DNA of 64,000 nucleotides from Dacryopinax spathularia (lineage: Eukaryota > Basidiomycota > Dacrymycetes > Dacrymycetales > Dacrymycetaceae). Where the stretch lies: NCBI GenBank assembly GCA_037974965.1, contig JBBPFI010000009.1:124001-188000 (forward strand). Direction: 5' to 3'. The notes below the pieces were generated by a model. The model was not told the DNA's origin and searched no databases. It saw nothing but the letters and a program-made list of their open reading frames with translations. Positions 27,566-47,230 of this stretch are shown here, piece after piece (position 1 is the stretch's first letter; each line of letters starts with the position of its first letter). Both the position numbers and the translations under genes were made by a program.

Positions 27566-27665
27566 GATGCTTCAGTCGGCCACGATTATCTCGGTCGTCT
27601 GAAGAGCGAATGAGCCGATTATCCCGAGCGGCCGGAGAGCGAGGCTTACAGGATAAATAACCGAT
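27566..27665. repeat. left terminal inverted repeat of KDZ element
   Basis: The left end aligns to the reverse complement of the right end: GATGCTTCAGTCGG against CAGCCACTTCAGTTG. After this, GATTATCTCGG and GATTATCCCGAGC match GATTATCGCAGCC and GATTATCGGAGCC. A shared GGCGAGCTT/GCGAGGCTT and GATAAA follow. Further GATAATC and AATCTAGATAAGC copies continue inward to about 27,710. Confidence 0.65.
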
Positions 27666-27928
27666 AATCTACCGTTTAGTCGTCGGTTAATCTAGATAAG
27701 CTGCGTTAATCCTTTCAGGGATGTCGCATACAGACGTTATGGGCCGGCTTATTGATTGAATCACACGTCCGTGAGCGGGCAAACAGCATCAAAATTCTAT
27801 TACGACGACGCAGGTACAGCGGAATCACTAGTGAATCATTCTATAGCAACGATTAATAAGTAGAACGTGAGCAAAGAGCAAGCAGCGCACCTTGTCAGAA
27901 AAGCCCACTCCATCGTCCTCCCGATCGC
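27665..27928. other. left subterminal region of KDZ element
   Basis: About 260 bp between the inverted repeat and the first gene of the element. It continues the GATAATC/TTAATC-like motifs for some 50 bp and is otherwise without recognisable features. Probably transposase-binding and 3' UTR sequence. Confidence 0.5.
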
Positions 27929-28453
27929 CTAGTGGAACAGCCCTACGATCGCAGGCACGATTGCTCCGATAGCAGTCGCGACCTTCCCGATCCATTCTCC
28001 CGAAGTGCTTCCACTATTGTTAATCGTCGCATTGTTGAACGAGCGGTCGAAACGAACGTTCAAGGGCGGAGCATGCATGCCTGCTCAAACGTCAGTAGCT
28101 ATAGTAAGAAGAGCTGTGAAAGACTTACGTGCACGACGAGCCGTCTCAGCCATCTCGAACGTCAGCCAGCGGATGCGTTCCTCGGCATTCATGATCTCGA
28201 TTTGATACGAACGTACGGCGTTTGCCGCCACTGTCAGCTGGAGCCGGATCAAGCTGCTCTGGTCGCGAGCAAACCGACGTTCAAGCTTGCGCAAGCGACG
28301 TTCCCAGTATCTCAAGTTCCTGCGATACATCTTCATGGTTTGCTGGGCGAGCCTGAGGCTCGTCATGTCCGTCCGAGTCGGAACGGGAGGCGGGGGAAGG
28401 ATAATCGTCGGCGAGAAGATGAACTGAAACCCCGCGGACTGATGGTTGCTCAT
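27929..28453 (-). CDS. small coiled-coil protein with hydrophobic Gly-rich tail (KDZ cargo)
   Basis: Exons 28453-28129 and 28080-27929 give 158 residues. After a proline run (IILPPPPVPTR), residues of about 32-110 form a highly charged helix with heptad spacing (LRYWERRLRKLERRFARDQSSL, IMNAEERIRWLTFEMAE). The last 30 residues read NNSGSTSGEWIGKVATAIGA then IVPAIVGLFH, a short hydrophobic helix. No family is recognised. Coiled-coil plus hydrophobic tail suggests self-assembly or membrane association. It is the outermost gene at the left end of the element and is transcribed toward that end. Confidence 0.65.
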
Positions 28454-28870
28454 GGCTGTCGACGTTTCGAAGCAGAGAGAAAGCGGCGAGAGGAGAGGTT
28501 GGACGTCGAGTTGCTCGAGACGATGAGCAGGAGAATGAAGGGCGTCGGCGAACGATTGCACCCTGATCTCGGGTGGCGCAAGCGGATGCAATTGCGACGC
28601 GGACAGCACAGCCACGAAGAAGGCGAGCAGGACGTTGATTATCTCGATCGAACAGATCTTCTTCCAAGCTAAGCTTCTGCCCTTCGCCGCTTTATTTGAC
28701 TCGATTCGCTGCGGATTTCATCTCGGTCCATCGCGAAAAGCGTTCTCGGCTCGTTACGTACTAATTCTTAGACTCTGAACCGGAATCTGCCGATACAGGC
28801 ACGGTGAGAATCTGGGCTGTGCGGAACAAAAGAAAGAGGGGCGTACGCTGCATTCCAGAACTCCCCGCTA

Positions 28871-29307
28871 TTACAGTCCGAAGAGGTAAGAAAGCTGGCT
28901 GACGAGGATTGGATCGGAGTTGCGAAGAGCTGAGTCGAGACGTATGTCTTGATATGTCCGCACTTTTGGGTGAACGGAGAGACGTGTGAGGCCTGCCATG
29001 CATCCAACAGTGTATACGAGTGCTCTGCTGGAGAGCTCCGCGAGCATATCGGAGGCCGATGGAACGTTCGGAGAGGGAGCCAGTAGAGGCTTGCCCAAGA
29101 TCACGGGGTGGTCGGCTTCTTGTGATACGCTTCTGCGATATCGTCCGCACGTCTGGTAGTCGCAAAGCAGTCCGGAAACAGGCAGAAAGACCAGGCATCC
29201 ATCGGACGTGGACGTCTGGCACATCGCTGAGACTCTTCTTCGAGATGAAGCCGACAAGATTATATGAGGAACATGTAGCAGTGAATCTCTACGTCGAGGG
29301 CCTTCAT
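28871..29307 (-). CDS. uncharacterised 100-residue protein (KDZ cargo), tentative model
   Basis: The best spliced model has exons 29307-29273, 29215-29105 and 29027-28871. It starts MKALDVEIHCYIRPRPMDAW and includes FPDCFATTRRADDIAEAYHK and RALVYTVGCMAGLTRLSVHP. No domain is recognised. Phases agree, but the donors (GTTCCT, GTGATC) are weaker than elsewhere and other frames are open across this interval. The gene could therefore be spliced differently and extend to about 28,761 (ending SDSGSESKN). It lies head-to-tail with its neighbours on the minus strand. Confidence 0.4.
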
Positions 29308-29515
29308 GGTCGTCAGTGTCAGCCTGCTGGCCAGCTGAACCAGTAGTGCGTGTTTGGGCTTGATACTTCCGTCCTTTTGCATCCGCTCTTTCGCCATCGG
29401 CCCTGAGCCCGGAGCCCGAAGAACACGTGGGGCAAGAATGATAGCATTATTGGGGCAGCATAGTATAGGAAGTAGTTTTTACCAGGCAGCCATTATAGCG
29501 CCTCACCAATATACC

Positions 29516-31027
29516 TCAGTCGGTCAGGTCGATGACCTCTATGTCCGCCTGTCCATCCCTGTGCTGACGCTTGCAGGCGCGAGCTTGAAATAATCCCTCT
29601 GCCTTCCGCTTCCTCACGTTCCGCTCGATTGGCTTCTGAGTGGAGGGCGGAAAGTCTTCTTCTCTTCCGGGCTGCGAAGCTTGAGCTGAAGACCAGGTCA
29701 GTAGACTGGTATTTACGGATGGTGAAAACGTACAGCCAAGGCGGGGCGTGCTGAACGAGCTTCCATCTTGCCGAACGTACGTCCTCAGCCGACCGTACGT
29801 CTGCAGCGGCCTCGTGCCGCCTGGCTTCTCTGTGCAGACACGATCAGACAAGCCGGTGAGAGCACGGAGAAGTAGAACGTACTGAGGATGTCCACTTCAT
29901 TTGGACGAGATATGCACGCATGCACAGGCGTGCATGCCAGTAACTCAGCCAGCTGGACGTATCGCGAGCTCATCTCGCGGCCCGACCAGTCTCGTGTGAC
30001 GTGGTCCCCGGACCGCAAGAGCAGGATCGAGCCACTGTATAGCCGGAAGGTATCTTCGAATCTCACATTCACCCATCTCGCTTGTTCGCGTTGGTAGTAC
30101 TGAACGATCGCATTGTCGACGAAGGAGAGCTTCATCTCCCGCAGAATGTCTGGGGACGTCATCGGATTGAAGTTTGTTGAGCTCTCGAATTCCAATTTGG
30201 TCGGCGGCAAGAAGGACTTCGCATGATCGTTAGCCACCTGAAGCATCTGACTGTAGCGGAAAGACGTACGCAAAGCCAGAAGTACACTCTTCCAGCCGTA
30301 GACGTTGCCCGCGCGTCCCACTCCCATCCGGACGGTGATGAGAACAGCCGTTCGCGCTTGGTTCCAGCTCGGCCAGTGAGGTATGCGTCTTTAGACTCGT
30401 CCTTCACGTCCATGCGGGAGGGAACGTCTTCATGTTTGATGGATGCGTCTTCCTCAGCAACCTCTGTGCTCTCTCGCTTGAACATGCGACGTGCAGTTCT
30501 CGCCCTGACTGGCGAAGAGAAATCCGACGACGGGATATAGCTGGCCGATGATGGCGACCGTGGAGACGACGTGGCGAGAAAACCGCGCTTGTCGTGACGT
30601 GGACAGCCGGGGCAGCATCCGATGCATGCCAGATAGGGACAGTTCCGGTTCCCCATCTTACGGCAGGCCGGATTGCAGCAATGAATCGAAAAGCCGGTAA
30701 CAGGAAATAGGACAGAGGCTGGGTTGAGGTCTGCCGCTGAAGTGGGATAGATAGGCGGAGCTGAGACCGCACGGCGCCAAGGGATGTCTGCCCTCCAATG
30801 CGACCAATGAGATACTCCTCCATTCTCCCCCGTGCACTGAAGTCCGACAACCCATATCAGCCATTTGCCTCAATCCATTACGTATAAGAACGCACCGCTT
30901 GATAAGACCGACCTTTGTTTAGCGGGGTCGAGGACGTCAGGATGCTCGGATGAATACTGCTAGAACACTGGCGGCAGACTTCGTCCGAATGAGGCGCGCG
31001 ATAGAGCACCGGGGAGACCGCAGGCAT
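29516..31027 (-). CDS. cysteine-cluster protein with C-terminal SUMO-interaction-type motif (KDZ cargo)
   Basis: Exons 31027-30896, 30836-30270, 30216-29883, 29829-29734 and 29685-29516 give 432 residues. Two cysteine groups lie near the N-terminus: CRQC at about residue 18, then residues of about 95-130 with CCNPACRK, NRNCPYLACIGCCPGCPRH. This spacing resembles the zinc-binding cysteine clusters found beside KDZ transposases in fungi. The middle is Ser-rich with IKHED and VKDES, both psi-K-x-E sumoylation-type sites. A region with no known domain (FVDNAIVQYYQREQARWVNVRF) follows. The last residues, EVIDLTD, match the canonical SUMO-interaction motif. The third exon could instead begin at 30,237 (acceptor 32 nt after the donor), in the same frame. 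Confidence 0.7.
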
Positions 31028-31760
31028 TTTGATATCTCAGTTCACAAGAGAGCGAAGCGAGAGAGGCAGACGTCGACAGAATGAAGATAGACTTAGCCCA
31101 GAGCAGCATACGTGCCTCTCTTTATACGGCTTGAATATGCCTCGCACGCCCCCGCCGAGCGCCAGGAGCTTCAGGTGCAAACTGGAATTTTATCGCAGAC
31201 GTTTCATTCCTGCCGTCGAGTTTCTGTGTCCACGTCAGCTGATGGGCGTTCTTCAGGTGCAAAGCAGAGATCGGGCTCGATAGTGAAGTAAACCGCTACG
31301 CTGGGAAGGATTTGATGCGGTCTTTAATCAGTCACATCGTCTAGCAGCGGATCCTGAACGCCGGTGAAAACGGGACTACGCATGGAAACGGAGCGGCCTC
31401 GGCTCCGTTCACCGACGATTACCGCAGACTCGGTTGCAATATTGGCACGGCTTATGAGAGTAAAAGATGAACGTTTAACGGCACGGCTTCTACTAGTGCG
31501 TTCCATTGATCAGGTTCTTCTGCTGGCCGAGTGATCTGACGACTACGTCTTCTTTCCCATGTCACGCCGCAACGGAAAGATGATCGCTGATGATAACGGG
31601 ACCTCGCTAATAACGGAGCACGTCCAGGGCCGATCTTGAAGCCTCCGATCAAAGCTCAGAACAGCGTGGAACCGAACGGGACGAGTATGAAGCAATAGTG
31701 CACTGCGGTCCAAGCGACTTCAGCGGCGCGCAGAATCCAGCAATGTAGATCTCATTAACG
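31028..31760. other. spacer in KDZ element
   Basis: About 730 bp between the stop of the transposase gene and the start of the cysteine-cluster gene, both on the minus strand. Short open frames without recognisable features. The transposase C-terminus might extend a little by another intron here, but no family similarity guides this. Confidence 0.5.
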
Positions 31761-34700
31761 TCAGCAGGAAATCGCAGGTATATCCAGAAATACAGCAAAG
31801 GAGGAACGGGCGCAAGCAGCCAACACTCCACAGACGAACTTCTGCTTGGCCGCGTAGGCGGCCCCGCCTTCCCTGGAGGCCGAACTAGTCTCAACGTCTG
31901 CCCAGCTATTGACGAAAAAATCGAAGAAGCGGATCACCCGCCGCATCTCTTCCTTCAGAAGCTCGGCTTCTTCTTTCCACCGCGAACATGATGCAGATGC
32001 ACGCCACCACGTAACTGAATCCACTGCAGCGGATCACATCAGCTGAATATTGGTGTGCGAAGCGGGCCGGACTGACCTGTATCACTCCATGAAACGCTGT
32101 AGCTGGAAGTTTCCTGTGTATTACCGCTCGATCGCTGCAGGACGTGAAACCATGGATCCGATCGGGGGGTTCGGCTACTTGCGTCCTGCCGCAGACCATG
32201 AAGAAGAGTGAGATCGTCGTCGGAAAGTGTCCGATACTTGGGATCATCTTCCCGGAGGCCCAGTGACAGCATCGCTCGCCTTGCTCTGCGATAGGTCTCA
32301 GCGTGACGACGGATCAAAATCGACTGCAGGTCCAGGGCCTTCCGAGCTCTTGTTTTGATACCGGAAGCAGTAGGTCCTTGACGGACGGCCTGCCGATAGG
32401 CGTGCTGAATTTTCAGCTCTTCTATCATGCGAGTCACAGCTTCTTCCGCTTGGCTCTTCCGCAGCTCAAGCTCGATACCCGCCAAAGTGTCGAGTTTCAT
32501 CCCACGTCGAGCTTGCAGATCGAAAGATGAGGGGAGACCCAGATCCTCTAACTCCGGTTGGCCTTCGTCGTCTGCTTCTGTCGTGCACGGCACAGCATCT
32601 CTTGAGAGCAGTGGCATCTCGCGGACTTGAAGCCTCCGCCAGCAGTCTATTTGGTGTAGTAGAGCCTGACGAGATTGCGCAAGCTCTGCCGGCTGAACGT
32701 CGGCTTCGCCGTCTCGGACGTTGTTGGCAGCTTCAGCTCGCTCTCTGACCCTGATTCTGCGCACTCCTTGAGCCGAGCTGGAGTACTTAAACGAATTTTA
32801 CTCACTGCGCCTCTTGAATGGTGATACCAAGCTGTAGGAATGAGACGGACGTTGTATCTCTGTCCGCTGGTTCATTCCATTCGGCATTGAATGTATGGGT
32901 GTCGTTCTCCCGCATTCGCTCGAGAATGGTCTCGTAGGTCGGCGCTGGCATTCAGTCTGAGCTTTGGTCACGTCAAGCTTGATGAGAAGTCACTCGCCTG
33001 ATTCCTCAGGAAATCGGTACACGGATTGGAATCTCCCGCCGCCTAAAGACACGTACGGCCGTAGACCCCGCCAGCGGGAAATACGGTCCTCTCCAAGGGC
33101 CACGCTGACGTCCGAAAAGTATTTCTCGTGACGCTGTAGCTCGACCTGCGCCGCATGCATACGTCGGCTGAGAGAATGAACTGGATGAAGAGAAGTGTCA
33201 TCACGCTTCCTGGCAATCTACGCTTGCGCGCTGGACGTACTGATATCCCTTTGCTTCCTCCAGTTCCAGTCCGCGAAATGCGTCTCTAAGCAATCACGTC
33301 GATGGCCGGGATTCATCTCCTTAGTACTACCTCCCAGCTGATTATGCTCTGCCCAGGTCCTCTCAACCCCTTCTCCGTCTACTCGTCCGGCACCTTCCTT
33401 CCAAGAGAGCGAGAATAGGTAGCGGCAGCTCTCTTTATGCGCATATTCGTGCATCTTGGGCACCACGAATGTGATACGATCATACAACGGTACCAGATGA
33501 GGGAATCTTGCGGCCATGCGTTCTCTCCATTTCGGCTGCCACATGCATGCCAGGTCGTAGGAGAGAAAGATGCGGGGCAATTTCTCTGCTCCGGCGACGG
33601 CATTGGCGAATGCGTAGTCTACGTTCGAGAAACTGCGGAAGAGAGCGTGAATTATTTGGCGACTTGGGACTTGGAATTACTCACCGCTCGCCTATCTGAA
33701 GATCTACTGTACCTCGCGGTCGGTAGAAGCCATGTCGCAAGCACGTCCAGGAATAGACGCCAGAGGAGCGATATCCAAGATTGCCCTGAAAGAGCATAGA
33801 CGTCCGGAATCCACTGCAGGTCTGCGGCTACGGTGCTGTCAGTCACGCGTTTCTGACAAGCAGAGAGCGAGAGCAAGCCTCACCAACTGAATATCTTCAT
33901 GAGTGCGAATATACTCCTCAAAATGCCGCTGGTTGGGGAAGAATCCTTGACCATCGTTGAGAGGTACGTCGCGAGAATCGATAATCTTCGTCTTCGAGGA
34001 CAAAGTGAAATTGCCATCTCCACCAAGATACAGAGTGAAAAGATGTCTGGTGGCACGTTCAGCTCGTCCGTGCATGCGGACTGGTCGAGGACGTACGCAT
34101 TAGACGGATGAACGTCCGCGAGCTCTTCTTCAGTCACATTGATGCCGACCTGTGGGCAAGCCGGGCAGAGTGGACTTCGTACGGCCCTAGCAGCGAAAGA
34201 AGGGAGGTTGCCAGTCATTCCAAGAAGATGTCCGCTCCGACGTGATGACTCCAGCTCTATCCAGATGCGGCTCACTCTCAGCAGCTCCCGATATCGATCG
34301 CTGGTCGATGATGGCAGCACGTCGCTGGTCTGCCTCACAAGCTTCGCGTAGTAGTCGTAGGCGGACTTCTTGGAGCAGAGAGTGTGCAGATGGAAGTCTT
34401 TCAGAAGGGCGAACGTGAATGCCGTTTTGGGTATCTCGTACGTGCTTGGAAACAACCGCGCTCGAAGAAGCTGGACGTATCGGTCGGGTTTATCGGTACA
34501 TTCGCAGAAGTGCATGGAGACGTCGTGGATTCCATTCGTGTGTATCACCGTTAAGAGGCTTGGGTGGTTCTCTGCAGCCGCCGGACAAGGCTGGCCTTCG
34601 TGACCGAGATGTATTGCCAAGCCCATCTCACGCAGTGTGTGACGCCGAAAGAAGTGACCATCCCACTTCTCCACCCAGTGCAGTGGATTCGCACGGTGCC

Positions 34701-35137
34701 TCTCAACCTGACAGGACGTGCACAGTTCTGAAGCATCGAAGCAGTCTCTGCATCGGATCAGAGGATCGCTTGGCTTACTGCAATGGGTACAAGATGCCGA
34801 CTTGGATCTTCGGCCGTAATGCCGCAAGCATTCTGCCGCAACTTCAGCTCGTCGCTCGAGGAATGCAGCCAGATGATCGGAACCCGCCTAAGGACGTGAG
34901 CTCGCTGCTCGAATGAAGTACCGGTCTGCTTACCTGCTTCCTTTTTGGCACTTCCCGACCGGAGTCGGCCGCGGGAGATAGCACTTTCGGGGTTATAAGC
35001 GGCGCCGCAGGACGTGGTGTAGAATCGACGCAAATGTGTGCTGAAGCTGGATTTCGTTGCCTCGTTCTCTGGAGCTTATCCATATCTTCGAGCTGCGAGA
35101 TATTAGGATTTCTCCGATTCCGGCGGGTTGCAGGCAT
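31761..35137 (-). CDS. KDZ transposase with CxC2 cysteine cluster
   Basis: Nine exons (35137-34934, 34887-34097, 34046-33884, 33821-33685, 33632-33241, 33180-32998, 32944-32806, 32756-32077, 32023-31761) give 983 residues. The CxC2 zinc cluster (SCTHCSKPSDPLIRCRDCF, LCTSCQVERH) is followed by GIHDVSMHFCEC, FPSTYEIPKTAFTFALL, SAYDYYAKLVRQ and LYLGGDGNFTL. The RNase H-like transposase core has CLRHGFYRPRGTVDLQIGER, FSNVDYAFANAVAG, LSYDLACMW, YAHKESCRYLFS, GAGRVDGEGVERTWAEHN and STKEMNPGHRRDCLETHF. The long helical tail (IEELKIQHAYRQAVRQ, RARRAMLSLG, WKEEAELLKEEMRRVIRFF) is the usual KDZ end. One intron (32,945-32,997) appears to use a GC donor. No stop or frameshift is seen, so it looks functional. 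It would excise and insert the element. Confidence 0.9.
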
Positions 35138-35600
35138 GGCTCCTCGACAAACCAGGCGCTGAGCCAAAGCATTCTGCAGGCATAGTATGCATTGCCGAAA
35201 CTAGCCAGCGGACACGGACGTCGGGTATGCTTGTGCATCATCTCCGCTACTCAGCGGAGACCTCGCAACCATCTTCTCAAGGGGACTTTGATGATCGACA
35301 CAGCTTGCACCGGCCAGAGACGTCTTCATGTGGAGGAGAGTGCTTCCTTCTTCCTGCAAGCTCCCGGACATCCAAACCCTTACGTTGCTTCCGTCAGAAG
35401 GTGATGATCATCGGAAGCTGGTGTGGCGGTATGCGCTCTGCCCCTTCCTTCCCTTGCTCCCGACGTGCTAAGATTAAAATGTCAAAACCGCTGCCCAACA
35501 CGTTGGGCCGTACTGCGAGTGCGACCGCTCTGGTTCTGCTTGTCAAGAACACGTCACTCGCTGGCCTTGGAGGAAGAGCTCTCGGCTTCATCTCGTCGAT
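35138..35600. other. divergent promoter region inside KDZ element
   Basis: About 460 bp between the start codons of the transposase (-) and the next gene (+). Open frames on both strands lack recognisable features. A shared promoter is likely. Confidence 0.5.
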
Positions 35601-37386
35601 ATGGTGAACTTCGCGCCCGAGCAGAGAAAATGGCTCTTGGAACGCTTATCCAGATTTAACGATCAAGCTGACTCCCGGAAAGGCAAGCAATATGCAGAGG
35701 ACGTCACTGCCGCCTTCAAAGAGGCCTTTCCCGACTATATTCCTCGGAAAAGCGGAGACATTGGTCAGGTACGTCATGAGTCTCACAACGACATGAATAT
35801 GCAGAATGATCTGAAGCCGAGTCCAGCAGATCTACGTCTTTCTGCGAAACAACCGATCGCATGTGAGCGACCCGATCATGAAGCTGCCATCCGTGAAAGA
35901 AAAGCCCTCACCGGTCGCTATCGTAGCACGCGAGCTCATGGCGGCAGAGATACCCGACTTGGCAGAGAAGCTGGCCCATCATGCAGGTCAGATCGATAAG
36001 TCTGTTTTTCAAGCACGTCCCACTTTCCTGAAGCAATACTGGGAGGAGAACATTTCGGACGGTGCCCGAAGAAAGTATATGGAGGCGGCTCAAAGTCTAC
36101 GGGAAACTGCTTCGGCTGAGACCGAGCTGCAGAGAAGGTCGGCGCTTCCAATCCATGCACGAAAGTCTGCTGACGTCCCTCAAGCGCGCCTGAGAAGATT
36201 TACAACACCGTGCTCGCTTTCCACAAGTCCCTCGCTGCCCAATCAGGCTGGGTTTTCTTCACGTTGGGTGGCGGTCTAGACCATAATGGAAATCGGGCGA
36301 TCGCAACGTAAGTAGCTTATCCTTTTGAGCGAGCCGCAAGATAACACTCTGGTGCTAGCGTCGAAACCGGTCAAACTCTGGCAGGTCTGACGTTCTCGCA
36401 ATTCAACGTTGGCCACCGCACTCACGTTGCCGAGGCTTTCAAGGACTTTCTGAGAGCTGCCAGTTAGCGCGCTGCTTTTCATCTCTCAACATGGTACTGA
36501 CGTTCGTATCGCTAGTCCCGGCGGTCGGGCAAGATGCAACCACACGATGTCTGCCTACAATCCAACGCTACGAAAGCGGCTGTCCGATGCTGCCGGCTCT
36601 CGATCCCCAGTGGAACAAGCCTGAGATTAGCGTGGTGCTGGCCACCTTTCTCACGCACCTTTTTGGTACGAATCCGACGTTCGTGGGAGCTGATCTGATC
36701 GCTAGCCCACAGAGCATGAGACGCAAGGCACTGAGATCGACTGGCATAGTGCACACCCGCTTCCTGGGCGGATGCCCATAGGGAGCTCTTTCATGCATCC
36801 GGAGAAGATGTCTTACGCGAGCCTCATCCTTGTCTACCAGAGGATTCAAGAGGAACAGTCAACGTTGGCGGAAGGATATACGTTCTTCAGAGTCTCGAAC
36901 GGTAGGCCGAACTGCAGCAGGTCACGCGTCTGCACATGTTCATACTGACATCCTCCCTGCCAGAGACTCGTGACGCAATCGGTCCAGAAGCCCCGATCAC
37001 GCCTCAGACAAGAAGGATAACGGCATCTGGCAATAACGTATGTTCTACGAGTTCCCGACGTCGGCAACATCATGCCCCAGAGAACTTCGGAATAGGGCAG
37101 TCTCCCTTCTCGACGCCGCCTCCTACGTCTGAAGCGGAGTCGGACGTGCCTGCCGGAGGGCCGTCCGCCATTCGTCGCAATCGCCGCAGGGAAGAGGATG
37201 AGAATGAGCAGTTTGAAGAGACACCGATGCCTGCTAAACGGCGTAGAAGACCGACGTACGTCTCCTAGTCTCTCAACTCGCGGGTTTTGCTCATAGTCTG
37301 CTTCCAGACTGAAGATGATGCTCGCTCAATCTCCCGGGTACAAGAACAAGTGGGAAGCTGCTCTCGTAGCTGTTTCTTTTGACTGA
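35601..37386 (+). CDS. uncharacterised nuclear-type protein (KDZ cargo)
   Basis: Exons 35601-35768, 35830-36137, 36185-36307, 36359-36462, 36516-36665, 36713-36901, 36964-37255 and 37308-37386 give 470 residues. The start MVNFAPEQRKWLLERLSRF and the segment ENISDGARRKYMEAAQSLRE resemble a repeat-associated family common in Agaricomycetes, known to me only as hypothetical proteins. Later segments are SGWVFFTLGGGLDHNG, DPQWNKPEISVVLATFL and FMHPEKMSYASLILVYQRIQ. The C-terminal quarter is polar and carries a nuclear-localisation-type run (PMPAKRRRRPT). Two donors are unusual (GTCGGC, GTTAGC), so single exon edges may shift. It is divergent from the transposase gene. Confidence 0.65.
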
Positions 37387-37643
37387 CTCAGAGTAGGTCC
37401 CGACAACGTGTACCCGCTCCTTCAGCTGCAATGTCGCGGTCCTCTGCTAGACGCCTGCAGTCCGCGTGAGAATTCTCGACGTCCGCCTACTGAGGGTAGA
37501 GGGAATGAGAGCGGAACAGCCTGTGAGTCTGACCGACGTGGCCTATCGAGACAGAACGTGGTATCTTAGCTGCAATTATAATCTTTTGGTTACAAGTGGA
37601 TGACCCTTCTAGCGTGAATGTGCCCATTTAGCAGCTCAACGTT

Positions 37644-39432
37644 CTACAACATAGAAGATAGAACAAATTGACGATAGCGCTGATATGCTTCTAAGCACTT
37701 TATCTTCTCCCCATGCATCCCCTTGTACTTGGCTTGATGACGTAGCCAGGCTGCGAGTCCCTGCCTTTCTGTTGCGAGCGTCGGTTGATGGGTAATCGAA
37801 CCTGAGGAGGATAAAGCTCGCACTTCCTCGCTTGGAGGACGTCTCCAGTAAGCAGTGTAGATATCAGACAGGAGAAGCACATAATTTACGTCCTCTCTGA
37901 AATCGATATCGAAGGTCATGTCGGCTGAGAAGACCGCCACTTCGCCGGGTGAATAGTCGTGATGGACGTCCATGATCGGGTCAATTTGCGTCTCAAGACT
38001 TGCGCCGGGGCCTTCATTGTATCGTCTTTTCAATACCCTCGATGAACTGCTTGGGGACTCGCGATTGGCGCGAACACCGGCATCTATCCCTGCCGACATT
38101 GAGCCGGACGTCTTCGATCCACTTGTGGACGCGGACGGCTCGCTTTCATTCGATTCAATGAGCTCTTCTTCTTCTGTATCCTCCGGCAAACCAAGGACCG
38201 CCTTCCATGAAAGCCAAGGAGGGCGTTCTGCCGCCGTGAACTCGACTGATCGAGACAGATCGACGTTGAAGATTTGCTCGATCTCAGAGCTATAGAAAGT
38301 TATACCGTTTGAGCAGATGGCGATTGGAGGATCGGGCAAGAGCTTTTCGCCTACGTACTGGTCAGGTGGCTGGGAGGCCGCAGATCAGAAGAGCACACAC
38401 GTTCGCTAAGCTCCCGAATGAATAGCGTGCCGTCCCACATACCGACGTTAAACGCCCACTGGCTGACTGTCGACCACTTGTATGGTTGTTCTTCATAGCC
38501 AGGAAGATAGATGTACTGAGAGACGCCGACTAGCACTTGCTGGGAGGCCTTCAGCGCGTGAGGCAAATCACGCCATAAGCAATTTCGACCAAGCATGACA
38601 CCTAGACGGGCTCAGTGCTCATCAGGAGGAAAGCGATAGCATTTGCTCACTGAACCACGTCTTCAAGTCTCGCCTTAAGAGTGTGTTGCTCGACTTCAGT
38701 GGAAGATATTGATTTGGGCGAGGCGGCCAAAGGCTTCTAGACGGCGAGTGCGGGTCGATCGGTATCGACTTAGCTGCAGAGAAATGATGTTTTCCGTAGC
38801 CAGGAAGAGTTACCTGCGATCCATCACGTCGCATAAACGTCTTGACGTCGAGCACTCCGCTGACGTTCCAGTCTTGAGCTGGCTGGGAGTGCGGGAGAGA
38901 GAAGGAAGGGCTTGTTCGCGAAGCGGCCAAGGCGTTCTGTAGCGTCGAAAACCAGCCGGGAAGCGCGTCTGCGCCGACAAAACGCTCCGTAGCAATATGA
39001 GAGAGGGAATCCAAGACTTCCCGGAGGCGAAGCGCTGAAGATGGCACCTCTTCAGTGCCTCGTCACGAAGAAGAGTTGAAGGACGTCCTCACCAGCTTGC
39101 ACTCCATCCGCAGCGGAAACGAACTCACTAACGAGCTGCTCCAGTTTGCTACCTCTTTCGCGCACGGAGTTGCTCCTTTGGCAGGTCATGCTGTAGTGAG
39201 GCAGTATGCCTGGGAACAAGCAGCCGTCGGCCGCCGATTCATGCTTCACCAAGTCGATATCACGGTCATGATACAGTGTTTCGGCTGCAGGGCTACGTCC
39301 CCCCGTACCTGGTCGGACGTAAGAAAGCGTAGCAACGACTGCTCTGTGCCACAGCCTACCGAGTGTCGTTGAAGAAGCAGCCAGACTATCCAGACGACCA
39401 AGATTCAGGAAGGAGGTAGTTGAGGTCATCAC
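37644..39432 (-). CDS. uncharacterised 554-residue protein (KDZ cargo)
   Basis: Exons 39432-39093, 39058-38651, 38601-38399 and 38357-37644 give 554 residues, in phase throughout. The first intron would be only 34 nt, so the start region is less sure. Distinct segments are DWNVSGVLDVKTFMRRDG, LPGYGKHHFSAAKSIPIDPH, GRNCLWRDLPHALKASQQVL, VSQYIYLPGYEEQPYKWSTV, NVGMWDGTLFIRELSER and DPPIAICSNGITFYSSEIEQ. An acidic Ser-rich stretch follows. The dense tyrosine/tryptophan-rich core looks like a folded globular protein. I cannot assign a family. I looked for a TET/JBP-type His-x-Asp because such genes travel with some KDZ elements, but saw none convincing. Confidence 0.6.
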
Positions 39433-39858
39433 AACAATGAACAATAAGGTATGTACGATGCTGGCAGCCAAAATTCCGAATGCGCTCAGGGTCGGCAGAC
39501 GGCCGCAGTCACCAGATTGCACGATGATGAACCAGTTCGATGCAGAATAATAATGCTTGTCCAGCAAAGCGATGCTTCAAGAGTAGCGCTCTAGAAAGAT
39601 GTCTGCCGAGTACAATACAATGGATCCATCATCGGGCCGGATCCGCACGGTCGGCACAGTCACCGGATACTTCTCTTCCTCAGGGTTGAAGTCTGCAGAC
39701 GTCCCGACACATGATAGCCAACACAGACTGCTGGGACGTCCGCATAGAGCTCAAAGTTAGCAATAAACATTGCATTCAGGAAACGGCGCACGGCCACGCG
39801 TATATAGACTACAATTACGATGTATCTGCGGAGGGAGATGCCAGGCATACACTCGCGC
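39433..39858. other. spacer in KDZ element
   Basis: About 425 bp with a 73-codon minus-strand frame (39,660-39,881) rich in Val/Ile (YIVIVVYIRVAVRRFLNA). It could be a missed terminal exon of the RPA70N-like gene. Nothing else stands out. Confidence 0.4.
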
Positions 39859-40423
39859 TCAAAGGCAGCCAATTGCCGCACGCCTCTCTCCTCTGCTTCC
39901 TCCCACTTCCGGAATACTCATGTCAGCCTGGTGGCTCAGAGGCTCGCGGTAGCCAGTTGTAGTTTCTCTTCCGACCAGATATTGAACGATGTGTTTCAGC
40001 GCATTCTCCGGGTCGACGCTGACGTCCAGATTTGCAGGAGACCCGTATAGCCGGGACGGACGTCCGATCGCCATGATATCAACCAATGTCACTATTCTGC
40101 GGGCATATCAGCATGCCTGTCGAACGCCGACGAAGCCGCGTACTGTAGGGTACCAAGCTCAACCGTAAAGTACTTCTTCACGGCAATTATGGTGAACGGG
40201 CTCAGCATTCCCGATGCCACGAGATCATTCAGCTGCGGATGAAGGCGAACGTTGATTATGTCGAACCCGTCACTGACGGCCAATCTGTAGAAGATGGTCA
40301 GGCTACAATCCAGAGTAGAGTAGGCTGTGGCACGTACTGGCATTCAGCCGAGCCCGCCTCTTGCATGTCGGAAGTCTTTAGGACGTGCGCGACCTGAAGA
40401 AAGGGCGACTTTAACGGCTCCAT
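39859..40423 (-). CDS. stand-alone RPA70N-like OB-fold protein (KDZ cargo)
   Basis: Exons 40423-40338, 40284-40154 and 40091-39859 give 149 residues. The pattern SPFLQVAHVLKTS ... LAVSDGFDIINVRLHPQLND ... SGMLSPFTIIAVKKYFTVEL ... VTLVDIMAIGRPS follows that of the N-terminal OB fold of replication protein A's large subunit. It matches in strand order and in the VSDG turn. It lacks the DNA-binding OB folds. RPA70N binds short acidic motifs of partner proteins, so this could be a decoy or adaptor for RPA partners. The C-terminal 40 residues are uncertain and might be replaced by another exon (an open frame continues to 39,660). Confidence 0.55.
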
Positions 40424-40854
40424 CCTGAGCATCCGCCTACAGGTTCCCTTCTTTAGAGTGATGGAGGGCATGTCTTCTCTGCCGGAAAAAGCCTAGATGA
40501 GCTGGAGAAGATGGCGGTCTCTGGATGACACTGGCGGACACGCTCGTAAGGTGCTGTAGCGGACTAAGACTGGTTCCGGCGGCGCGTACGTGCCTCTGCA
40601 AGACTACAGCTCTCCAGCCTCGCCTCAATGCCCAGATGTGCATCTCATCCATCGCGGACCGCCTTGTGTTAGGCTAGCCCATATGCCTGAACGTGAACGA
40701 AATTGACTGGTATTAACCCGACGTTGTACAGCTGTGTAGACGAAAAGAAGTTGCTATCGGATAATCATGAAACCTTCCACTCCGGCGCTCTCATGAGCTT
40801 TCCTGACCGAATTTATACTATATGGACGTCCCGCTCAGTTGGAGGCCGACCACC

Positions 40855-41578
40855 CTACGCCTCGCAGCCGCTGCGGTGCTGAGACGAAGGCATAGTGACC
40901 GCAGTGGTGTCGGTGACGTCGGAAGCTTCTTCGAAATGGGGGCTCCCACTAGAAATGCTAGTGCCAGTCTCAGTGGACTGAGAAAGTTCAGGCTCTGGAA
41001 TCTGTGTCGACCAAAGAAGTCAGTAGGTGTTAAAACGGAGAGCAGAGACGCACTTCTTCGAGATCGTGAATCTGAGGCCAACGCCTTTCACACTCTTGAA
41101 CGACCAACCTAGCAAGCTTCCCAAGCTCAAGGACGCTCATTTTTGAGAGTTGACGTCCACGCTGCTCAGCTGCGGAATTGTGCTGCATATCTACACGTCC
41201 TCCGTCAGACATAATAAGCTTCAGGCCGTCAACGAGCTTTACCTTGCGTTTCAGTGCGCGACCTCGCAAACATCTCGTCATACACGTCCGTCAGGAGCTC
41301 GTAGAAGAACGAATCGTCGATTTGCTTCAGCAGCTTCTTGGATTTACGGGCATGCCGCCCCTTTTCTGAGAACAAGACATCAGTCTGTGATCTTGACAAC
41401 AACGTGAGCACGGACCTTCAGCGGCGTTGGCTGTCGCTCCTATCAAGAAGCGATACTTCGATGCACAGACGCGCAAGGAGACTGTATTGTTCGCTGTATC
41501 CTTGATGACGACCGTATCATCCAGGCATGGCTGCTGAGAAGTAGTGGTAACCTCCAGAACAGAGCGACAGGCGGACAT
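40855..41578 (-). CDS. uncharacterised 189-residue protein (KDZ cargo)
   Basis: Exons 41578-41416, 41365-41243, 41190-41054 and 41001-40855 give 189 residues, in phase with ordinary donors and branch sites. It starts MSACRSVLEVTTTSQQ and contains VSLRVCASKYRFLIGATANA. A basic helical stretch follows (KGRHARKSKKLLKQIDDSFF, LLTDVYDEMFARS), then VLELGKLARLVVQECERRW. The tail is acidic and Ser/Thr-rich (PELSQSTETGTSIS). No family is recognised. It lies in a run of minus-strand genes between the RPA70N-like gene and the leucine-zipper gene. Confidence 0.6.
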
Positions 41579-41866
41579 ATTGGCAATACGTGTATGCAGA
41601 TAACAATGTAGAGAGAGAGAGAGAGATACACAGGGGGTGTCCACCAGCGGAGCCAACTATTAAAGCTCCGCTGCAGATGCACAGCCTGCACTAATTAGGC
41701 AAGAGGGTAAACATGCCTGAATCTAAAAGAGCAAGATCTGTTGCCCTTACAGCGCGGAAACTTCATCTACGATTCCAGAATGCTACATTCACTTGTCCTA
41801 ATTGTACATATTGAAGCTTCACACCGGTATCCCATTCACTAATGTCTGCAGCTGGCCGTCCTTCCT

Positions 41867-43164
41867 TCATGTGGCATCCTCGGTAGACTGTAGTTCACGC
41901 TTGAGCCGCGCGTTCTCAAGCTGAAGCGCTTTCACCTGCTTCTCCAGACCGTCCACGCGGCGGTCCAGTTCCAACAGCATAAATGCCTTGAGAAGATTCT
42001 CACTCCGCAGTGACTCTGCTCTTGCACTCCAGTCGGGCTGCGGAGTGAACTTCACGTCGATTTTCTTGTCCTCCTCGGGTTCGACTTTGATCTGAATCTG
42101 AATCTGTACATCAACGTAACTCGGGAATGACAGCAAAAAGAAAGACTAGACTCGCACCTCATCCTCGTCGTCGGACAAGAGCTCGATGATGTTCTGCCCT
42201 GAAGGAGCCCGGTCTAGCGCGCGCCTCTTCCTCGGTTGAACTTCGTCCCCATCTGACTCAAGAGGCCTCTTCTGCTGTTGGGTGAAAGAGCTGCCCAAGG
42301 ATGTGCCTTGCTCCGTAAGAACCGGCTGAGGGAACAGAGCGGCCGCAGAGTGATTGCGGTCTTCGGGCATCCCCTGAGCTGGGTACGTCGACAGTGCTTG
42401 AGAGGTCCCTCGAGCCCGAGGGGCTACCTCCCCCTGAGATGCTCCCTGAGCCTGAGTCGTCCCCTCAGACGTCCCCTGAGCCGCAGACGCCGATGTGAGC
42501 CGCACGGCTCCCGACGGCTTGTCGACCTGGGTCGTCGGGTTGCTCTGAGAGGACGTATGCGCACCCGACGCCGCCTTTTTCTGCGCGGCACTCCTTGTCT
42601 GAGGACGGCGATCGTTCTTTTGAGTCTTAGTCTTGGCGGAGCCTTTGCCACGGGACGTGCTCGATGCATTGGCAGAGGTCTTCGTATTGGACGTGTTCTT
42701 CGTCGCAGCCGTATTCCCCAGATTAGCCATGTCTTTCTTGCCCACGTACGTATTGAGCTCTTTCTTCGTAGATGATCGACGTGAGGTGGAAGGAGCCCGC
42801 TTCAGGTCAGGAAGGACCTGAAGAAAGTCGAGAAAACCTAAGCCGCCGTCAGCGCCAGCTATCTTCAAGGAAAGAGTCGGACTAACAGTCGACCGAGGAG
42901 CTCTGTATTTGATCCTTCCTTTGCATGCACCTTCCAGGCTGTTAAGAGTAGCGTCGACCGATATGAAGACCGATTGTACTGTCGCTGCAGCCGACGATAT
43001 AATGTTTTGTCAGTGACAGACGACGGTTGAAGAGAGAGATGACTTCCAGCGCTGGGCAAGACCGAGATCCCCTGAATACGCGGGAGTATATCAGCCGATA
43101 CGACTCACGTTCGCGGGCGCTCACCCTGAGTCTTCCATCCTTCCTGAGCTTCTACGACCAGCAT
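41867..43164 (-). CDS. leucine-zipper protein with SUMO-interaction and sumoylation-type motifs (KDZ cargo)
   Basis: Exons 43164-43125, 43071-43025, 42984-42894, 42837-42158 and 42103-41867 give 364 residues. The centre is a low-complexity Ser/Thr/Gln/Ala stretch with repeated AQG and EGT units. A basic patch (QPRKRRALDR) precedes NIIELLSDDEDE, a hydrophobic core followed by acidic residues as in a SUMO-interaction motif. Directly after it comes IKVEPEED, a psi-K-x-E sumoylation-type site. The C-terminus is a coiled coil with leucine heptads (LLELDRRVDGLEKQVKALQL). All junctions are in phase. The 13-residue first exon is less certain because its ATG overlaps the start codon of the divergent RPA1-like gene. 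Confidence 0.65.
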
Positions 43165-46100
43165 GGCTGAAAGCTTGCACGAGCATACTTGCGCTCATCT
43201 TCTGCAAAGCACCGACAATACGTTCAATGATGCTATCGTGTACGTCCTGAGCTGCGAGCTTATCGCTATAGACGGACGTGCGCTCTCCAAAGAGCTTGAG
43301 TACAGGTAAGCCATCAACGGTTGAGACGATATATGCTGATCACCCTGCTCTAGAGCCACACTAGCCGACCTCACTCAATCGATAGACGTCATGCTTGGGG
43401 ATCAGCCGGCAGCTCTGGCTGCGAAGAACAAGCTGGAGAAAGGCACGCTGCTGAGCGTGAGAGAAGTCATGCGCGGTACTCTGATGAACACCAGGTACGT
43501 TATATGCGCTTCGTCCCGCCCGCGCTCAGCTCAATGTATGTCAGGATCATTGTGATTCTGCGTGCTCAGATCGTTGGGAAGCTTGGAAAGCTTCCTATGT
43601 TCAGACCGATGCCTCTAAACCTCTCAACGACGGCAGTCCAAGCTGTCTCATCTCATACAAACTCTCTGGGTACGTCCGCCTTCCTTGCTTGGGCCTACCT
43701 TCTTGTCTGACCACGTCCATGGTACTTCACATACAGACGCGCCTTCTTTGAATGCTGGAGATGGCGCGGCCGGTTCTTCTGGTATCACCTGACCTTCAAC
43801 AAGAGCATATAGCGGTCTGATCGACGCTCCGACGCCCACGCGCGAGCTTCTTCATCTGCCTTCGCAGACTCCGCCTGCTGCCGATAACTCAACCGAGGCC
43901 GATGCAGGTTCACAGCGTACCAGGGACAAGGGAAAAAAGCCGGCTGCGCCGACGAAGGTCACGCCTCGGCCGAATCCAGGGAAGCAGAAAGGAACGGCCG
44001 GAGAGACGTCCGGTAAGAATGACCCCAGCCGTCGACACACTCAGTCGGCTGCTGGCAAGGCGGGTGGAAGCAATCAGCAGGCTTCTGGATCAGGATCGTC
44101 CTCCGCCCAGGCAGGCAACTCTGCTGCCGCCGACTACCTTGCCGAACCCGATTGGGACGAAGGCGACATCAATCTGATGATGCTGAGCGACCTTCGGCCC
44201 AAAATGCGAGTTGCATGGGAAGTCTACGTCCGGATCCATCATATCTTCGGACCGAAGGAGTACTCGAACGCTAAAGGAAGCGGGAGATTCATGTTCTTCA
44301 TCGTCCAGGATGCAAAGAACGTAAGTGAGAGCTGCCTCGGCCTGCATCTTTCGCTGACAGGCGTACAGAATGCCATGAAAGTGCTCATATTCAGCGACGA
44401 AATGCTTGACAGAGCGAAGGAAACGCTGAAGGAAGGATACGTACGTCTGAGTCTCCGCTGAATGGATCCCTGCTAATCACTTTTCAGGTCATGAGATTGA
44501 ACAATGCCAGAATCCGGCCTACCGACATGGATTATCGCCTACCTAAGCTTCTTCCGTACGAAGCCGTCGTGAATAATCATATGAATTTTGAGCCGATGGA
44601 GACCGGGGTAAGTCTTTCGTGCTTGACTCTTTAAGCGCTCCTCTGATACCCTCGAGTCAGGACTACGGCATCCCTCCGATCGAGATAGACTACTCAGACC
44701 TACGTACTGTTCGAGGCTTAGGACCGAAGTCTGTCATCAACATCCTCGCCGTGATCCACGACGTAGGCGGTCTGGCGGATATGAAGAAAGTAAAGCGCGT
44801 CGCAACGACCGACGGCGCTGAGTCAGATCAGGATGATGCGGAACTTGGTTGGAACGGCAAGCGCACTCGTCTTGAGGTCACTCTGGTCGATGCGACGATG
44901 TTCGCTATCCGCCTGGCTGTTTGGAACGAGAAAGCCATTAGCTTCAGAGGCCAAGTTGGCGACGTCGTTGCGCTGAAGAACGTCGTCATAGCCACGCATG
45001 GCGGCGTCAGCCTCAACGTCTACCGCAGCACGACGATAACCCTGAACCCTGCCCATCCCGACGCCCAGAAACTCAAGACGTGGTATAGCGGGCTTCCAAG
45101 CGATCAACTCTTCCAGTCGGTGTCCTCCGGCTTCAGCGCGCAGTGCCCTCTCAAGCCCGACGTGCTGCCGCGCTCTTTCTGCTTATCGATCAAGGAGGTC
45201 CTCGATTGTGGTCTCGGATCTGGCCAGAAGGTCGAGACGTTCAACGTCATCGGCACGATCAAAAGGATTGATACTGTCGGCGCTACTTATGAGTGCTGTC
45301 CTCATCCCGATTGCAACAAAAGCGTCGAACGTGGCAGGTGCGAGATCGCGGACCACAAGCCGTCGAGGAAGAAGCGCTACTGGTAAAGTTGCTTTCCTTC
45401 TCAATATTTTCTGTCCTCTGACGTCTATTCGAGCTATCGTTTGCACATTGGTATCGCTGAGGAACGCTCTCGTCTGCGGCTTGTTGTCTTCTCGCCGCTG
45501 GCAGACGAAATGGTAGGAGAAACGGCGCAGGAGCTACATAAGCATAAGGCAAGCTCTCAATTAGTTCTTTTTGCTTGTTGCTGACGGAGGATAGGATGAT
45601 CCCTCGTACGCGAAGGAGAAGATGAGACCTTTGATGAAAACGAAGTGGTGGTTCACAGTCCAAGCTCGCACCAATCGTTGGTGGGTAAGTGAAGGCGGAA
45701 TTCTCTGAAGATCTACGCTGAACGTCCATAGGATAAGTATCTCGATCAAGCTCAAAGCGTGATTCAATACACCGTGACGGGCGCGAAACAGCTGGATGAA
45801 GATGAGAAGGACGATTCGCATGACAACGACAACCGGTCTGAACCGGCTGAAGAGCCGCACGTCCATGATCCCGAGCACGAGGTGCGACCTGATTCGGAGG
45901 ATGAAGACTCCGGCTGCGACGGCCGCGCACAAGAAGATGCTCTCGAGGAGGAAGACTCCGGACGTCAGTCGATTCAGCATGAGTCTGACGAAGATCCTGC
46001 CGCTGCGGGAGAAAGCAGGGACGACGACTCGAGCGATGAGTCAATGAAAGACGACTCTATTCTGGCTGCTATTGAAGATCCGGACGTCGCTGCGGCTGAT

Positions 46101-46175
46101 GTCCAAAAGTCGATTGAAAAGATTCTGTTACAGTACGCAGCGAGGTCTTTGACGTCCCAGAAGAGAAGGCACTAG
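43163..46175 (+). CDS. replication protein A large-subunit (RPA1/RPA70) homologue (KDZ cargo)
   Basis: Ten exons (43163-43305, 43354-43494, 43545-43669, 43806-44320, 44369-44440, 44488-44607, 44661-45382, 45434-45548, 45595-45684, 45732-46175) give 828 residues. RPA1 is the main subunit of the eukaryotic single-stranded-DNA-binding complex. Four OB folds are seen. RPA70N, about 20-105: YRATLADLTQSIDVML, TRIIVILRAQIVGKL. DBD-A, about 260-365: MRVAWEVYVRI, NARIRPTDMDYRLP. DBD-B, about 373-550: VRGLGPKSVINILAVIHDVG, RLAVWNEKAISF. DBD-C, about 590-680: FNVIGTIKRI, ECCPHPDCNKSV as a zinc ribbon, VVFSPLADEMVGETAQEL, WWFTVQARTNRW. A tail of about 145 acidic residues is unlike ordinary RPA1. The intron at 45,549-45,594 has a GC donor. 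The edges of the intron at 43,670-43,805 are uncertain. Confidence 0.85.
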
Positions 46176-46337
46176 TGTAAGAGTTACAGCCGAGATGAGC
46201 CAGCCTGTATGATTATCGCTTAGATAAGCGCCGACTGTACGAATAACGCAATTAATGGAATGTCTGATTGACCCGATGGTTTATTGCTGGTTTATCGCTG
46301 GAATAATCTCGTACATCCCTTTTTATTCCATTTTATC
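46176..46337. other. right subterminal region of KDZ element
   Basis: About 160 bp between the RPA1-like stop and the right inverted repeat, AT-rich compared with its surroundings. It contains GATTATCGCTTAG and several TTTATCGCTGG-like repeats, likely extensions of the transposase-binding region. Confidence 0.5.
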
Positions 46338-46437
46338 CACTGTTTATCTTGCAAGCTCGCCTTCTTCAATCGGCTCCGATAATCTCAGTATACGTTCTTG
46401 GATCGGCTGCGATAATCTGAAGCAACTGAAGTGGCTG
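46338..46437. repeat. right terminal inverted repeat of KDZ element
   Basis: Read on the minus strand, this end begins CAGCCACTTCAGTTGCTTC, then GATTATCGCAGCCGATC and GATTATCGGAGCCGATTG. GGCGAGCTTGCAAGATAAAC follows. It matches the left end in the order and rough spacing of these blocks. Confidence 0.65.
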
Positions 46438-46446
46438 GTCAACACA
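46438..46446. repeat. target-site duplication, right copy
   Basis: Second copy of GTCAACACA, identical to 27,557-27,565. Confidence 0.8.
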
Positions 46447-47230
46447 TACGGTTTCGGGCGGCTGCGAGCGAACCAAGGCCGTCTTACCCTCCCCTCACTT
46501 GCTCACGAGCGCGGGAGAGCCAGCGGAGGGAGGTAGTTGGGAGCGCTGGTCGAGTAAGTCTCCAACCTGTGCTTTCTGCCCGAGCGCGGTGGTGCTGCAG
46601 GTAGAGAGACCTTCAGGCTGACGTGAACCACCCAGAAGACCCGCCGCGTTTCAGTATCCCTTTTCCTATCGATGCCACACTCGCTCGCACCAGTTTAGCC
46701 GGCTATGAGGTTCTCCTCGTGACATTCTCTCATCCAACTTATATGAGCCCCGTGAATTCTGGCCTGTGGTCTCACTGGCAGCTTCTTATTGAGATCCCCG
46801 AGTTGGGTCAGAGTGATCGGGTCGAAAGCAAGCGTAAACCCCCATTTTTCGTCCTTGATCCAATTCCCAGCCCGATGAGTAAAGCCTTGCTTTCCTTCTC
46901 GGCTTTGCTGCAGGACCAGGGGAAGGACGGCCAGAACGTTGCTCCAAGCAAGTCGGTCCTATGCCGCTTTCCTCTCCGGGCTCGACCCCTCGGCGTTGAT
47001 GACGGATCAACTACAACAAAATACCCGACGTTGGAAGGCATCGTAGCTGCTCTGCTTGACAAGAACCTGGACGGGGTCATGGGGGACGATACTTGATGGT
47101 GTAGAGACGCCCTTGTAGTCCTTCATGAGCTAGGATGGCTGGATCACGTTCCCGATTGGGTCGTGAGTGAAAGCGAGCCGATCAAGAGGAGCGAGATTGA
47201 GAGGAATGGGACCGTTCTCAAGACTACCTG
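46438..47230 (+). pseudogene. paralog B, 3' piece (rest of exon 1 and exon 2)
   Basis: Host gene fragment. Exon 1 continues 46,447-46,553 and ends TGG GAG CGC TGG TCG A before GTAAGT. Paralog A has TGG GAG GGC TTG CGC A before GTAAGT, in the same phase. Exon 2 (46,609 on) reads FPIDATLARTSLAGYEVLLV, HWQLLIEIPELG and FFVLDPIPSPMSKALLSFS, which aligns with paralog A. An in-frame TGA at 47,094-47,096 replaces a Trp codon of paralog A. Similarity continues past it (WCRDALVVLHELGWLDHVP against WCGEAFDSLQRAGWLPSDP), so the copy is truncated as well as split. It has lost its own promoter to the insertion and is presumably dead. Confidence 0.75.

Follow-up and report, generated by a model that had tools for sequence, protein, structure and literature searches.

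RPA1-type and stand-alone RPA70N-like genes in a KDZ transposon family of Dacryopinax spathularia

Why would a transposon that moves by cut and paste carry its own replication protein A (RPA)? The question is raised by a 64,000-nucleotide stretch of the Dacryopinax spathularia genome (contig JBBPFI010000009.1, here C9, positions 124001-188000; the whole stretch is called the window below), in which an RPA1-like gene lies inside a complete KDZ element. To our knowledge, transposon-coded RPA has been described only for Helitrons, where the single-stranded DNA (ssDNA) of rolling-circle transposition explains it. Here, an RPA1-type gene and a second gene for a stand-alone RPA70N-like domain were found in each of five KDZ elements, of which they appear to be fixed and selected parts. 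Two testable answers are considered, namely that these genes may shield transposition intermediates from checkpoint and repair responses, or that they may block RPA-dependent RNA interference (RNAi).

The KDZ element and its two RPA-type genes

The exon models used throughout were made with a small gene finder trained on conserved segments of the same elements and are predictions from sequence alone; the predicted window genes have short introns. In window coordinates, the element, its transposase and its RPA-type genes are as follows.

27564-46437: complete KDZ element of 18,874 bp with ends CAG...CTG, supported by ends common to four other copies and by a 7-bp duplication
27557-27563: left target-site duplication GTCAACA, exact 7 bp
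46438-46444: right target-site duplication GTCAACA, exact 7 bp
27564-27656, plus strand: left terminal region (CAGATGCTTCAGTCG...) with GATTATC-type words
46356-46437, minus strand: right terminal region (reading inward CAGCCACTTCAGTTG...), an imperfect inverted repeat of the left one
31761-35137, minus strand: KDZ transposase with CxC2 cluster, motifs GGDGNF, SYD and DGEGVERTW kept
43163-46175, plus strand: RPA1-like gene, ATG at 43163, stop at 46173-46175
43163-43305, 43354-43494, 43545-43669, 43737-44320, 44369-44440, plus strand: its exons 1-5 (model)
44488-44607, 44661-45382, 45434-45548 (followed by a GC-AG intron), 45595-45684, 45732-46175, plus strand: its exons 6-10 (model)
43163-43669, plus strand: RPA70N-like OB domain, from Pfam and profile comparison
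43790-43792, plus strand: in-frame TGA of the window copy, in the linker between RPA70N and DBD-A
44147-44607, plus strand: DBD-A, approximate borders, from profile comparison
44661-45160, plus strand: DBD-B, approximate borders, from Pfam, fold and PDB matches
45180-45790, plus strand: DBD-C with variant zinc ribbon (C-x4-C, C-x4-H, later Cys), approximate borders
45791-46175, plus strand: acidic tail ending in a short basic helix-like stretch
39859-40471, minus strand: second RPA-type gene, stand-alone RPA70N-like, exons about 40338-40471, 40144-40284 and 39859-40096

An earlier sequence-only reading of the window had placed the RPA1-like gene inside a KDZ element, and this element can now be bounded at 27564-46437 by an exact 7-bp duplication. 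Its transposase matches the Pfam families KDZ (PF18758, E 1.1e-35) and CxC2 (E 3.1e-37), and the three motifs kept in it are presumably catalytic. Four further copies, each studied in 36 kb of fetched sequence, are named, like the window copy (C9), by their contigs (C8, C15, C5 and C13). The five copies are 18.8-20.4 kb long and collinear inside the element, and no DNA match between two copies was seen running beyond the ends. All five are flanked by exact 7-bp duplications (GTCAACA, TGTGCGC, CAGAATG, CCAAAGA and AAAGTTT; chance about 1 in 16,000 each), and the 300 bp outside either end of the window copy occur only once in the genome. The left ends share CAGATRCTTCAGTCG and the right ends, when inverted, CAGCCRCYTCAGTYG. 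Inverted matches between the two ends of one copy were obtained for C5 (95 bp, 74.7%), C13 (85 bp, 72.9%) and, weakly, C15 (67 bp, 62.7%, E 0.075), and BLAST found no terminal inverted repeat inside the C9 or C8 copy. Words of the GATWATC type were counted without a chance test: the leftmost 500 bp contain 3-7 in every copy, and the last stretch contains 3-6 in all copies but C8, where the right-hand cluster is missing. Exact duplications flank copies whose divergence is old, and the lineage thus seems to have remained mobile without losing either RPA-type gene.

The assembly (29.2 Mb, 24 contigs) was the only genome searched, and KDZ domains occur in it at 29 loci (52 matches, merged), a count to be read as a lower bound. 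The window DBD-A piece as query returned itself and relatives on C8, C15 and C5, the C13 copy came from a REPA_OB_2 search, and the distance from each of the five RPA1-like genes to a KDZ domain is about 10-11 kb. Among the other 24 of the 29 loci no relative of the element RPA clade was found; a scan of 20 kb around each, the distance named in the sequence-only reading, gave an RPA-family match at one (C7:249807), and this match lies nearer to a Helitron (11.5 kb).

The domain plan RPA70N, DBD-A, DBD-B, DBD-C and acidic tail, first read from the letters, is borne out by Pfam, profile comparison and the DBD-B fold, and the four domains stand in the order of the RPA1 family. In Pfam scans, which covered ten open reading frames (ORFs) and five predicted proteins of the window and for which the stop in the RPA1-like window row was replaced by X, the window protein matched Rep_fac-A_C (E 2.6e-12), REPA_OB_2 (E 6.8e-10) and, below the cut-off, Rep-A_N (E 0.0022), for which the C15 copy reached E 7.4e-7. 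No Pfam hit covered DBD-A; compared with a profile of host, Ustilago maydis and human DBD-A it gave a probability of 96.8 (E 2.8e-10). For the N domain, taken from all copies except C8, the match to the RPA70N profile reached 98.4 (E 6e-15), and a single control pairing of DBD-A with RPA70N gave 0.2. The fold predicted for the DBD-B exon from five rows has a predicted local distance difference test score of about 70-87 in the OB part, with a mean of 54.9 and 119 of 240 residues below 50; its best PDB matches include, in the first five, the RPA70 chains 1fgu, 4gop and 1jmc (E 5.2e-8 to 3.9e-7), at a template modelling score of 0.44-0.49 on the query. The zinc ribbon claimed for DBD-C differs from the four-Cys form of the family: the Cys pair of the first knuckle (C-x4-C) is kept in all five copies, and the remainder consists of an invariant C-x4-H and one further invariant Cys. 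An alignment sets Cys of all five copies against human C481, C486 and C503, the last of these facing the further invariant Cys, and leaves C500 unpaired. The ribbon is best described as a predicted variant with uncertain ligands.

The stand-alone RPA70N-like gene, which is missing from the sequence-only reading, is found in all five elements. Its Rep-A_N matches have E 5.8e-6 in the window copy (at the cut-off, and scored within a fused two-gene model), 4.1e-7 in C8, 3.7e-4 in C15 (below the cut-off), 2.5e-9 in C5 and 7.8e-8 in C13. Its profile gave 98.2% with host RPA70N and 97.9% with the N domain of the RPA1 that the element encodes. A sequence search recognises it in C8 and C15, and the remaining copies were assigned by position, motif or Pfam.

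Ancestry and selection

Dacryopinax spathularia has an RPA1 of its own at C2:1633778-1635799 and a second host-type RPA1 at C5:1769335-1771500, a diverged gene of the core type with 40% identity to the main one; the element gene is hence not the only RPA1 of the species, a case that the sequence-only reading had considered. The closest PDB entry to the main host protein is 4gnx (E 1.7e-159 over residues 164-600), which we take to be RPA70 of U. maydis. A phylogeny of 15 rows was built from the five element proteins, host-type RPA1 with U. maydis and human, and six Helitron-side genes. The element proteins form one group (100/100), separate from the host RPA1 as well as from the other rows: host-type RPA1 groups with U. 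maydis and human (100/99), and so do the six RPA1-like genes near Helitrons with one another (99/98). Identity of the element proteins is 20-24% to the main host RPA1, 19-24% to the Helitron-side group and 29-65% among themselves. A host gene merely lying next to the element was ruled out by the exact duplications around the gene at five loci and by the host's own RPA1. The RPA tree is unrooted. A transfer from Helitrons to KDZ elements is not supported by it, the two groups being separate, though some root might make them sisters. Relatives in viral contigs were sought in two scans, and none of the 54 and 71 pattern matches was confirmed.

The transposase tree comprises the five elements, the pieces from 23 other KDZ loci having been left out because their alignment never covered more than 98 of 463 columns. 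Its unrooted order is identical to that of the RPA proteins, with C8 and C9 paired, C5 and C13 paired (87/91 in the transposase tree) and C15 between them.

In the genome as a whole, 31 RPA-family clusters were counted, some of which rest on weak matches (E up to 0.1): five lie in the KDZ elements, 20 are nearest to a Helitron and six are elsewhere, including the two host genes. The 20 Helitron-side clusters are within 14 kb of a Helitron, and two of them are also 16-18 kb from a KDZ locus; the label was given by nearness to a helicase, and only 'near' is claimed. Where modelled, these genes are of the full-length RPA1 type. Apparent pairs of RPA genes near a Helitron helicase are seen at C2:2417102-2420869 and C11:772059-775846, and one RPA-family locus, close to a contig end on C7, is without a helicase in its vicinity. 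Given that the accessible parts of a survey of Fusarium Helitrons report no RPA (PMC5148889) and those of a Pleurotus study none in the RepHel ORFs (PMC4289320), the D. spathularia genome is unusual also for its RPA genes near Helitrons.

Selection was assessed by Nei-Gojobori counts of nonsynonymous over synonymous change (dN/dS) on the predicted gene models. For the RPA1-like gene the ratios are 0.23 (C8/C9, 807 codons), 0.27 (C5/C13, 770) and 0.17 (C15/C5, 789), and they are rough, with dS at 1.1-2.6 and thus near saturation. The stand-alone RPA70N gene gave 0.25 and 0.14 and the transposase 0.14 and 0.13, the third pair being saturated in either case (pN/pS 0.40 and 0.24, respectively). 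The weakest constraint was seen in two accessory genes, a low-complexity gene (C8/C9, 0.42) and a small coiled-coil gene (C5/C13, 0.40). On these gene models the excess of silent change in the RPA1-like gene appears plain despite the rough ratios, and because its copies have diverged to 29% identity at a dN/dS of about 0.2, we regard it as a probable maintained module under purifying selection and not as a passenger. The premature stops in two of the five copies would suit a passenger gene acquired by chance; this origin is nevertheless highly improbable for a gene that is present in all five copies, forms one deep clade and keeps a dN/dS near 0.2 across a dS above 1. The term cargo used in the sequence-only reading is right in that a KDZ element carries the gene, and it understates the case, as all five collinear copies have it, apparently under purifying selection and each with a second, RPA70N-like gene.

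DNA contacts, partner surfaces and possible roles

What the protein may do was judged from residues, given here in human numbering, whose roles are those of human RPA. Seven of the 11 ssDNA-contact positions checked keep their type in all five copies, namely 212 (Y/W), 216 and 234 (K/R), 238 (F), 269 (F/Y), 361 (W) and 532 (F). The surfaces for partners look different. In RPA70N, the cleft that presumably docks checkpoint proteins is basic at positions 31, 41, 43, 88 and 91 in 0, 1, 1, 0 and 0 of the five element proteins, and the stand-alone RPA70N proteins are basic at 31, 41, 43, 88, 91 and 92 in 0, 3, 0, 0, 0 and 4 of five. The trimerisation helix after DBD-C, which we take to join RPA32 and RPA14, gives way to the acidic tail in every copy that extends this far, four in all (C13 stops earlier).

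Since the basic cleft and the C-terminal helix are largely lost while most checked contacts are kept, the element RPA1 may be a dedicated stand-in that acts on the element's own ssDNA and does not call the host partners, a reading to which we give a probability of roughly 0.5. Excision, insertion and gap repair of an element of about 19-20 kb would expose ssDNA for a short time, both at the element ends and in the donor gap, and the four-OB protein would coat it in place of host RPA. It could then hold the ends and subterminal repeats for the transposase without summoning the RPA-dependent responses of the host, and the stand-alone RPA70N protein would serve as its protein-protein adaptor or as a competitor for RPA partners. 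The ssDNA binding, the monomeric or homomeric state, the place of action and the avoidance of partners are all properties that we infer. The earlier proposal that the element may supply its own ssDNA-binding protein survives as the best reading; of its further options, evasion of the host repair machinery is likelier than recruitment, because most of the docking cleft and of the trimerisation helix is gone. The same residues bear on the idea of an ordinary RPA helper that joins host RPA32 and RPA14 and brings in host repair so that the donor gap is healed. The presence of all four RPA70 domains speaks for it. Against it, the usual position of the trimerisation helix is without one in each of the four copies reaching that region, and the docking cleft is largely lost; we judge this role quite unlikely.

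Several observations weigh against a partner-avoiding stand-in. The remaining contact positions vary among the copies, with H in four and F in one at 386, R in four and C in one at 343, Q in three and E in two at 277, and a mixture at 210. The cleft partly remains, with R92 kept in all five copies and R43 in C9; the two host proteins are basic at 31, 41, 43, 91 and 92 and not at 88, K88 being lost in the main host RPA1 already; and the cleft row of C8 is weak, its model having an incomplete N domain. A basic helix-like stretch past the acidic tail in C8 and C9 is a possible substitute for the trimerisation helix. Two of the five copies contain a premature stop: C13 has one inside DBD-C, and the window copy may be broken or inactive because of the TGA at 43790-43792 in its in-frame model (C8, C15 and C5 are open in the gene models). 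The roughness of the RPA1 ratios belongs here as well, and we know of no need for much ssDNA in cut-and-paste transposition.

The retained contacts could also serve a targeting or timing factor that couples insertion or excision to the ssDNA of replication forks or of sites under repair. RPA marks replication forks and most checked ssDNA contacts are kept, both of which would fit; the five duplications are, however, without an obvious common motif by eye, and such a factor seems unlikely.

Silencing provides another answer, which we entertain tentatively. A transposon RPA would cover the ssDNA of repeats, would be unable to recruit RNA-dependent RNA polymerase and would thereby act as a decoy that blinds RNAi. 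The premise is that fungal host RPA brings this polymerase to repeat ssDNA and that this step is required for RNAi silencing. RNAi genes are present in the genome (10 RNA-dependent RNA polymerase matches, on C18, C12 and C6, and nine Argonaute (Piwi) matches), and a parallel is offered by the TET cargo of other KDZ elements, which is thought to counter methylation. RPA1-type genes are also found next to Helitrons (20 of the 31 RPA-family clusters are nearest to one), which transpose by another chemistry. A shared host pressure would predict this, but for Helitrons rolling-circle ssDNA is already reason enough to have an RPA. A version in which both RPA-type proteins form one anti-silencing system, a partner-less RPA whose cover on transposon ssDNA would stop host RPA from bringing the polymerase there, together with a free RPA70N that would sequester RPA partners, is doubtful. 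If it were true, such a system would be a DNA-binding counterpart of viral silencing suppressors, evolved independently in the KDZ elements and possibly the Helitrons of one genome.

Other genes of the element and known systems

The remaining genes of the window copy are the following.

29516-31027, minus strand: conserved Cys-rich gene with C-terminal VIDLT[DQE] (SUMO-interacting-like), in 5/5 copies
35601-37000, plus strand: conserved gene c, function not assigned, start MVxF..EQRxWLLxRL, 3' end uncertain
37644-39100, minus strand: conserved gene d, function not assigned
40855-41578, minus strand: gene without assigned function, recognised in C9 and C8 only
41867-42978, minus strand: low-complexity gene with a SUMO-interacting-like motif and a C-terminal coiled coil, 5' end uncertain
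27929-28673, minus strand: small gene encoding a coiled coil, then a hydrophobic tail

Protein searches with the window genes found the Cys-rich gene, the transposase, c, d and the RPA1-like gene in C8, C15, C5 and C13 alike. For the low-complexity gene and the small coiled-coil gene the sequence search matches C8 only; layout, together with the motif in the case of the former, places them in the other copies too. The Cys-rich protein resembles a GRF zinc finger by eye, a lead for which Pfam gave no hit at E up to 1 and, with the N-terminal portions from two copies, none at E up to 5 either. VIDLT stands at the C-terminus of the Cys-rich protein in all five copies and [IV][IV][ED][LM] before an acidic run in the low-complexity protein, both of which we take to be SUMO-interacting-like motifs; in these two accessory proteins they hint at a SUMO link to repair. 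The small coiled-coil protein and its homologues have an SFN-type motif ahead of the hydrophobic tail, and the protein could be membrane- or amyloid-related.

Three observations concern the surroundings and history of the elements. The left 1.35 kb of C5 (positions 4955-6305 of its fetched region) and C13 (4823-6172) is 92% identical, compared with about 68-74% in longer matches elsewhere, and the left ends of these two appear to have been exchanged recently between elements. A 714-bp sequence at C7:452285-452998, resembling a miniature inverted-repeat transposable element, has both family ends and what look by eye like long inverted repeats, and an exact duplication flanking it was not found. 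Two ORFs on either side of the window insertion (26155-26706 and 46605-47093) are about 30% identical and on the same strand, and the element may therefore sit between paralogous host genes.

Literature searches of partial coverage, which did not include the cargo list of the founding KDZ paper (reportedly Iyer et al. 2014), showed no RPA in KDZ or other terminal-inverted-repeat transposons, in agreement with the earlier statement that none was known to have been described in KDZ elements. Kyakuja elements, which have TET/JBP cargo, share with the present one the KDZ transposase, 7-bp duplications, CA..TG termini and an accessory gene, according to the accessible text (PMC12730594). RPA genes replace TET/JBP here (no TET/JBP family was among the Pfam matches of the ten window ORFs and five predicted proteins), and imperfect inverted repeats occur in C5 and C13, whereas that text gives none for two Laccaria families (PMC12730594). 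Because of these repeats, the D. spathularia element is not filed as Kyakuja. Cryptococcus KDZ1-3 are likewise KDZ elements active in a basidiomycete, of about 9-11 kb; they differ, in the accessible part of their description, in having CxC1 instead of CxC2, inverted repeats of 139-241 bp and duplications of 8 bp or 4-8 bp, and neither 'RPA' nor 'replication protein' occurs in the main text of that paper (PMC12810828).

Core eukaryotic RPA1 has the same domain order, N-A-B-C, and shares most of the checked ssDNA contacts with the element protein, which differs in its low identity (19-25%), its variant zinc ribbon and the loss of most of the docking cleft and trimerisation helix. If this residue pattern is read rightly, the element proteins would be natural separation-of-function RPAs, with contacts kept and partner surfaces lost, and possible reagents. 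The closest precedent is the plant PHRPA, with animal Helitrons and Helentrons as further cases, which is likewise a transposon-coded RPA1-type protein and, as far as the accessible text describes the plant case, forms a clade outside host RPA1 (PMC4683698). In D. spathularia, by contrast, the carrier is a KDZ transposon with 7-bp duplications and not a rolling-circle element, a second, RPA70N-only gene accompanies the first, and the element clade stands apart from the RPAs that lie near Helitrons in this genome. Transposons that bear RPA are therefore known already, and it is their occurrence among KDZ/DDE-type elements, together with the second RPA70N gene, that is new as far as we have found.

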